The notes under the pieces: model-generated
What the model saw: only the letters and a program-made list of their open reading frames with translations
Told to the model about the DNA's origin: nothing
The model's database searches: none
DNA from: Anaerolineales bacterium
GTDB lineage: Bacteria > Chloroflexota > Anaerolineae > Anaerolineales > Villigracilaceae
Direction of reading: 5' to 3'
Assembly (NCBI GenBank): GCA_011389535.1
Contig: JAABUE010000012.1
Span: forward strand, 1-35,711
Length of the DNA: 35,711 bases
Position numbers and translations under genes: made by a program
In this document: piece by piece, positions 12,840-13,712 of the stretch
Layout: every line of letters starts with the position of its first letter
How positions within the stretch are numbered: the first letter of the stretch is position 1

Positions 12840-13712
12840 ATGCCTGAACTTCCCGAAGTCGAAACCATAGCACGAAAACTGCGGCCAGAGCTGGTTGGCA
12901 AACGTATCCTGAAAGCCGACCTGCTCTGGCCTCGTACCCTGGCGACTCCGACTCCGGCGAAGTTTAGAAAACTGGTCAAAGGGCAGGAAATCCAGGCGGT
13001 CAGCCGCCGTGGCAAGTATTTTGTAATCCAATTGTCACATTATCACCTGTTTGTCCACTTGCGCATGAGCGGGGATTTGTATATAAAAGAAGAGAATGCA
13101 ACGCCGGAAAAGCATGATAGGATGATACTTTCCCTCACCCCCGGCCCCTCCCCCGCAAGGGGAGGGGAGAATCCTCCTCTCCGCCCGAGAGAGGGGTTAG
13201 GTGTGAGGGAAACAAAACTGGTGTTCAACGACACGCGCAAGTTTGGACGCGTCTGGCTGGTGCGCGACCCGGACGAGGTGGTCGGCAGATTGGGGCCTGA
13301 ACCTTTAAGCGAGGAGTTTACGGCACAAGCGCTGTACGAGAGCTTACAGGCACGGCACCGGCAATTGAAACCGTTGCTGCTCGACCAGTCTTTTTTGGCC
13401 GGGTTGGGCAATATCTACACCGACGAGGCTTTGCACCGGGCCCGTTTGCACCCGTTAATCAGGTCTGATGCCGTTAAGCGGGAGCAGGCCGAGGCATTGT
13501 GGGCTGCGATCCGCGAAGTCCTGCAGGAGGGGATCCGGCATAACGGAGCCAGCCTTGACTGGGTTTATCGCGGCGGAGATTTCCAGAATCATTTCCGCGT
13601 GTACGACCGAAAGGGCCAGCCCTGCCCGGTCTGTGGGACGGCGGTCGAGCGCCTGGTCATTGGCCAACGGAGCACGCATGTTTGCCCGGATTGTCAGAGA
13701 ATAGGGAGTTGA
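12840..13712 (+). CDS. mutM: Formamidopyrimidine-DNA glycosylase with an in-frame repeat insertion
   Basis: 290 residues, roughly 20 more than usual. The catalytic N-terminus MPELPEVET (P2, E3), the beta-hairpin Lys region RRGKYF, the HLRMSG loop and the C-terminal zinc finger C262/C265/C282/C285 are intact, so the enzyme should excise 8-oxoguanine and nick the DNA. Residues about 98-124 are low-complexity and rich in Pro, Gly and Arg. They are encoded by a palindromic repeat at 13129-13212, inserted in frame between two strands that are normally joined by a short turn. No clear Shine-Dalgarno is seen. Confidence 0.93.
   Translation: MPELPEVETIARKLRPELVGKRILKADLLWPRTLATPTPAKFRKLVKGQEIQAVSRRGKYFVIQLSHYHLFVHLRMSGDLYIKEENATPEKHDRMILSLTPGPSPARGGENPPLRPREGLGVRETKLVFNDTRKFGRVWLVRDPDEVVGRLGPEPLSEEFTAQALYESLQARHRQLKPLLLDQSFLAGLGNIYTDEALHRARLHPLIRSDAVKREQAEALWAAIREVLQEGIRHNGASLDWVYRGGDFQNHFRVYDRKGQPCPVCGTAVERLVIGQRSTHVCPDCQRIGS
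13129..13212. repeat. Palindromic GC-rich repeat element inside mutM
   Basis: Ends are a perfect 10-bp inverted repeat (TTTCCCTCAC at 13129-13138, GTGAGGGAAA at 13203-13212). Inside are further C- and G-runs such as CCCCTCCCCCGC and GCAAGGGGAGGGGAG. The form, reading LTPGPSP...GLGVRE in translation, is a type of dispersed repeat I recognise from many bacterial genomes. It is open in the mutM frame on the plus strand and also open on the minus strand. Confidence 0.85.

Follow-up and report, generated by a model that had tools for sequence, protein, structure and literature searches.

What placed a palindromic repeat inside the reading frame of a DNA repair gene, and how does the host protein accommodate it? 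This question is raised by the mutM gene of an Anaerolineales bacterium (Villigracilaceae), located in the window analysed here, a stretch of 35,711 nucleotides that forms contig C24 in a draft genome of 2.61 Mb (G000; 65% complete, 210 contigs) and is placed in Anaerolineales, Chloroflexota, by the relatives of its MutM. A sequence-only reading of the window had described an 84-bp element with perfect 10-bp inverted ends lying in frame in mutM, and this was confirmed at exactly the same position (Table 1). Folding of the 84-nt element strand is 3.5 standard deviations below that of shuffled sequences, with none of 200 shuffles equalling it, and inner hairpin 1 is the sole GC-rich hairpin with a stem of at least 9 in the 35.7-kb window. 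An Rfam search of the window gave zero matches.

Table 1. Positions of mutM and of the parts of its palindromic insert within the window
Feature	Position	Strand	Evidence
mutM (formamidopyrimidine-DNA glycosylase), host gene, 290 aa	12840..13712	+	ORF listing, Pfam, Foldseek
Palindromic element, perfect 10-bp inverted ends	13129..13212		sequence, fold z -3.51, BLAST copies
Element core CCCTCAC...GTGAGGG, MutM residues 98-124	13132..13209	+	sequence, PDB alignment, AF2
Left terminal inverted repeat TTTCCCTCAC	13129..13138	+	sequence
Right terminal inverted repeat GTGAGGGAAA	13203..13212	+	sequence
Inner hairpin 1, CCCCTCCCC / GGGGAGGGG	13145..13167	+	folding, window hairpin scan
Inner hairpin 2, imperfect, decayed compared with other copies	13170..13198	+	folding, copy comparison

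The host ORF encodes a complete set of MutM domains, with Fapy_DNA_glyco, H2TH and zf-FPG all above the Pfam cut-off, and an AlphaFold2 model built from 11 sequences has MutM/Fpg structures as its best Foldseek matches (E 4e-26). The catalytic and zinc residues had been described as intact; indeed, P2, E3, K59 and the four cysteines Cys262, Cys265, Cys282 and Cys285 are invariant in the family alignment. The extent of the element-derived segment had also been read correctly, but the number of added residues had been set at about 25, and measured against the short turn seen in relatives, the net gain amounts to about 22. It was further proposed that the insert separates two strands which are usually linked by a short turn. 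Solved MutM chains support this, as they align with residues 1-102 and 125-287 and skip element residues 103-124. In the AlphaFold2 model, strands 93-99 and 125-131 flank the insert, and the pLDDT is below 50 for residues 104-122. Such low values are what a disordered surface loop would give, here predicted at the tip of a beta-hairpin; its translation in cells has not been shown. The sequence-only reading had also pointed out that the opposite strand of the element is free of stop codons. The minus strand is open from 13043 to 13411, but this carries little weight, since such elements leave two of the three frames open on each strand. Orthologs carrying the same residues at this place without a repeat, which would have refuted an insertion, were not found: about 45 of the roughly 90 mutM proteins compared have the short turn, and many of the relatives with extra residues at the tip carry recognisably palindrome-derived sequence as well. 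The in-frame insertion of a palindrome into mutM is solid. A different turn of the protein, near residue 66, carries another insertion of 8 residues in G005, G008 and G030 (L014, L015, L018).

The element is one member of a dispersed family. Further copies in the genome had been anticipated, and a BLAST search with the 84-bp query yielded 17 other matches in the window genome, the best with 85% identity over 82 bp; four of the 17 are near full length and 78-85% identical. The consensus, derived by eye from the copies, reads CCCTCACCCC-N2-CCCCTCTCCC-loop-GGGAGAGGGGA...TCCCCTCTCCC-loop-GGGAGAGGGGTTAGGGGTGAGGG. Exact CCCTCACCCC occurs 27 times in the window genome compared with 11 for the reversed control, 126 times compared with 1 in the relative G005, and in excess in most relatives. 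These counts come from pattern searches that require exact ends and therefore overlook decayed copies. In-frame copies that are read through were found in many conserved genes of two Anaerolineales genomes. In the window genome, the hosts are MurE, MtnA, UxaC, an amino-acid-kinase-family protein, a luciferase-like monooxygenase, a FAAL-type protein, a PMT_2 protein, a trehalose-synthase-like amylase and MetH (two copies), in addition to MutM. In MtnA and MurE, the residues that are extra compared with PDB structures fall on the element peptides. For G005, 30 sites were sampled, and 14 of 26 unique sites were in frame by our own count, which is based on codon score and inspection; hosts with Pfam support include SecA, LeuRS, ValRS, aconitase, PolyA polymerase, an amidohydrolase and a GMC oxidoreductase, among others. 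A palindrome seems to break the frame near the 3' end of a protoporphyrinogen-oxidase-like gene (L004, G000:C104), which is a possible disruptive insertion. The trehalose-synthase-like protein has a palindrome at the same site in G000 and G005 (L002, L367), which makes it a third site of recurrence alongside mutM and metH. In 29 bounded copies, full flanking direct repeats of the kind that a target-site duplication would leave were not in excess; an excess of flanking matches at k=4 in these copies was taken as noise, as it came without any full match.

The tip of the MutM hairpin has been used repeatedly. Loops derived from the palindrome are present at this tip in G034, G033, G014, G005, G008, G110, G111 and G098, several of them decayed; the G034 insert is a tandem double copy, and decayed remnants persist in several genera (L012, L015, L144, L147). 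A second, unrelated repeat family, GCCGTCCTCGGC, occupies the tip in G093, G098 and G028 (L145, L149, L016), and in G098 it is placed after the repeat of the first family. This second family is itself dispersed, with 42 copies in G093 and 57 in G098 compared with 1-2 for the control. Many of its copies in G098 lie within 70 bp of contig ends; from this, the repeats break assemblies, and copy numbers in MAGs are undercounts. A third palindrome, CCCCCCAAATTCAAAGAATTTAGGGGG, is located at the tip in G109 (L148), and its dispersal is undetermined. In a mutM tree built without the loop residues, the long-loop state requires 11 changes, at least 5 of which are forced by supported branches. Congeners with the short turn surround the filled G034 on this tree, and the filled G005 is sister to the short-turn G065. 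The sequence comparison shows that at least two dispersed repeat families entered the same mutM tip independently in related genera. Based on the changes on the tree and the placement of G034 and G005, the tip is a tolerant turn that is repeatedly invaded or subject to turnover.

Several other explanations for the mutM insert have to be considered. The tip could have received a single palindrome in the family ancestor, followed by turnover through recombination or gene conversion with dispersed repeats and then by decay. The remnants in several genera and the tandem duplication inside the G034 insert are in line with such a history; however, it is difficult to reconcile with the positions of G034 and G005 on the tree and with an unrelated repeat family at the site in G093 and, behind the first repeat, in G098, so that we regard it as improbable. 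A loop retained because it is useful, e.g., for binding a partner or DNA, seems very unlikely: in solved Fpg structures, the tip lies on the N-terminal domain, near the strand leading toward the DNA-intercalating residues, which would suit such a role, but loop sequence and length vary wildly between species, the loop is disordered in the model and the same peptides appear in unrelated proteins. Even slightly less credit is given to a hairpin that works at the RNA or DNA level, as an attenuator or as a gyrase or nuclease site, with translation being incidental. While the element folds strongly and such functions are known for REPs in other systems (PMC3733652), many copies are situated in frame in the middle of genes rather than at gene ends, and the Rfam search of the window found no match. 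An assembly error can practically be dismissed; the window comes from a lone draft MAG of limited completeness, but related inserts occur at the same codon position in independent assemblies, and the same class of in-frame insert is found in many genes.

An indication of a possible mobility enzyme comes from MetH. In the window genome, two element copies in MetH flank an in-frame DUF559 domain (E 4e-34; L204/L005, G000:C200:26640-27190). About 80 DUF559 matches were found across 46 relatives, many within long ORFs, and Pfam placed DUF559 in frame inside ValRS, UvrA, two Type ISP enzymes, a UvrD-like protein, a PIG-L deacetylase and an APH-family protein; in one of the embedded loci, the host is a long ORF that matches a methyltransferase only weakly. 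These loci (L237, L243, L244, L245, L248, L249, L250, L242) mostly have palindromes on one or both sides, and Pfam scans of the DUF559-carrying host proteins revealed no intein (Hint) domain. The flanking repeats are of the same class as the mutM element and are usually direct, with the best cases spanning 72-161 bp and sharing 88-92% identity (e.g., 87 bp at 92% in MetH and 161 bp at 91% in L212). Eight MetH copies and four other embedded DUF559 copies form one clade (support 92), and the active-site residues E, D and H of the motif E-x-D-G-x-x-H are retained in every embedded copy. By sequence, the embedded domain matches the structure 3hrl (E 1e-19) and only weakly 3r3p; by fold, it matches the latter, I-Bth0305I, with a TM score of 0.81. 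Overall confidence in the MetH-DUF559 model is low.

In relatives, the MetH linker is empty, contains only a palindrome or contains the full palindrome-DUF559-palindrome arrangement. On the MetH tree, the filled state requires 6 changes, and no fewer than 4 of them are forced. The DUF559 domain found in MetH of G042 clusters not with other MetH copies but with the domain of a different host protein (support 98), and as far as can be judged from this grouping, the MetH site was probably entered more than once. In G000, G005 and G034, the similarity of DUF559 is about equal to that of MetH or exceeds it, although DUF559 diverges faster elsewhere; this comparison suggests lateral movement of DUF559. 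The patchy filling is consistent with homing, which would involve site-specific cleavage of the empty allele. Two further observations concern DUF559 genes in other settings. At L205/L207 (G000:C132:9301-10392), a free-standing DUF559 gene has undergone a partly truncated tandem duplication, and the flanks match. In an Oscillochloris-like genome (L314), DUF559 is located inside an apparent intein, and in view of this intein-like setting, members of the family seem to reside in proteins both with splicing and without it.

The association between DUF559 and palindromes extends beyond embedded copies. Hairpins with a pyrimidine arm and a stem of 8 or more were scored within 250 bp of DUF559, and 54 of 81 loci have one: all 11 embedded and 26 of 48 free-standing Anaerolineales loci, 8 of 13 loci from other phyla and 9 of 9 records from a plasmid collection. 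Among controls, such hairpins were seen at 1 of 400 random positions in diverse genomes, at 17 of 316 random positions in Anaerolineales and at 0 of 23 Y1 transposases. As the hairpin definition was picked after the repeats had been seen, P values are descriptive only. The plasmid-collection genes (L390-L398) stem from Sphingomonas, Sinorhizobium, Azospirillum, Deinococcus, Sphingobium, Synechocystis and Shinella, and the association thus reaches Alphaproteobacteria, Deinococcus and cyanobacteria. In Sinorhizobium meliloti Ak57, the DUF559 gene is located between two CCCCTCACCCTAACCCTCTCCCC... copies, which are close to the Chloroflexota terminus, and the repeats that flank DUF559 in Sphingomonas parapaucimobilis and Azospirillum lipoferum have further copies in the respective records. 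An apparent link between full-length elements and DUF559 records in Sinorhizobium was dropped as evidence because four "plasmid" records look like chromosomes; these are CP090106.1, NZ_CP104127.1, NZ_CP104131.1 and NZ_CP104135.1, which are labelled as plasmids and have sizes of 3.5-3.7 Mb. Under strict criteria, only about half of the free-standing DUF559 genes have a clear palindrome. The genome-wide number of repeats correlates only weakly to modestly with the number of DUF559 genes (rho 0.30); the contrast for the embedded clade is stronger, with p 0.0009, but without correction for kinship. No description of the DUF559-palindrome association was found in the open-access literature on DUF559 with repeats or mobility; subscription papers were outside the scope of the search.

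How does this system relate to known ones? The sequence-only reading had compared the mutM element with the palindromic elements of Rickettsia, and the likeness holds for behaviour, which is all that was compared. RPE are short palindromes that lie in frame in many unrelated functional genes and add protein segments (PMC10969869, PMC3733652), as is the case here; however, the present elements occur in another phylum, form a C/G-rich double hairpin with pyrimidine arms, have a version bearing a DUF559 nuclease and use the same site recurrently. In REP/RAYT systems, a single-gene nuclease unit is bordered by palindromes, which are also dispersed alone, and repair genes contain some of the REPs (PMC3733652, PMC2817692). 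This architecture is shared, but RAYTs have REP flanks in inverted orientation (PMC2817692), whereas the repeats described here are mostly direct, the enzyme is DUF559, and the ends are CCCTCAC/GTGAGGG with no GTAG/CGTC tag. A RAYT/Y1 transposase was rejected as partner, as pyrimidine-arm hairpins were absent from all of the 23-28 Y1 transposase (Y1_Tnp) loci scored in relatives. DUF559 has been assigned to the EDxHD homing family in an intein context (PMC9403480), and the homing-endonuclease fold is EDxHD/Vsr-like (PMC3943268). The cassettes share the nuclease fold and the E-D-H motif with EDxHD homing endonucleases such as I-Bth0305I, but most copies lie outside introns and inteins, are read within the host protein between palindromes and, unlike inteins, are not surrounded by a protein-splicing domain. 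Like MITEs, the elements are short, dispersed, non-coding on their own and bounded by terminal inverted repeats, but no target-site duplication was detected in the bounded copies; the enzyme observed with the same repeats is a DUF559 nuclease.

Insertion, dispersal, recurrence, cassette structure and association have all been observed, and it has been shown that the same class of palindrome flanks DUF559 both in free-standing genes of several phyla and in in-frame cassettes without an intein. We lean towards regarding the repeat in mutM as a copy, either non-autonomous or solo, of a palindromic double-hairpin mobile element associated with DUF559; mobilisation by DUF559 is inferred. The full element would consist of palindrome-DUF559-palindrome. 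Its nuclease is presumed to cut DNA, thereby driving the spread of the full unit and of lone palindromes, the latter of which may arise by direct mobilisation or, similar to solo LTRs, by recombination between the two direct repeats. Selection would retain only those insertions that preserve the frame in flexible linkers or turns, and the insert would be translated as a disordered loop rich in Pro, Gly, Ser and Arg, which the host protein tolerates. No close pair of filled and empty sites that fixes the insertion point was found, and no movement was observed. Not every DUF559 member need be a mobility enzyme, since the Caulobacter DUF559 protein VsrA has a Vsr-like function (PMC12907096).

The possibility that has to be taken most seriously against DUF559-driven mobility, even though we rate it as rather unlikely, is an ordinary REP- or MITE-like repeat that is moved by another enzyme, with DUF559 being a passenger or a preferred neighbour between two copies. 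Some repeat-rich genomes are nearly devoid of DUF559, e.g., G025 with 188 CCCTCACCCC sites and only one DUF559 match, which is distant and located in a long ORF, and elements without DUF559 are far more numerous than those with it. However, the association is specific and crosses phyla, the RAYT-type Y1 transposases of the same genomes lack such flanking, and the DUF559 cargo is found with an intact active site in at least seven host protein families.

It is still an open question what mobilises the numerous palindromic repeats of bacteria that lack a RAYT partner; DUF559, as inferred here, is a concrete candidate with a homing-endonuclease fold. Bench tests of this idea are feasible, since related loci are present in culturable Sinorhizobium, Azospirillum, Sphingomonas and Deinococcus. 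To our knowledge, in-frame palindromic elements were so far known mainly from Rickettsia; a free-living phylum now has them in MutM, MurE, SecA, ValRS, LeuRS and MetH. We hold the balance even on whether DUF559 with flanking pyrimidine-arm palindromes represents a widespread class of mobile elements in several phyla, which would enter genes in frame, persist without splicing and seed loops and linkers in essential proteins. The insertions also show that mobile DNA has repeatedly given rise to new protein loops, and a single MetH site was found empty, with the palindrome only and with the full unit.
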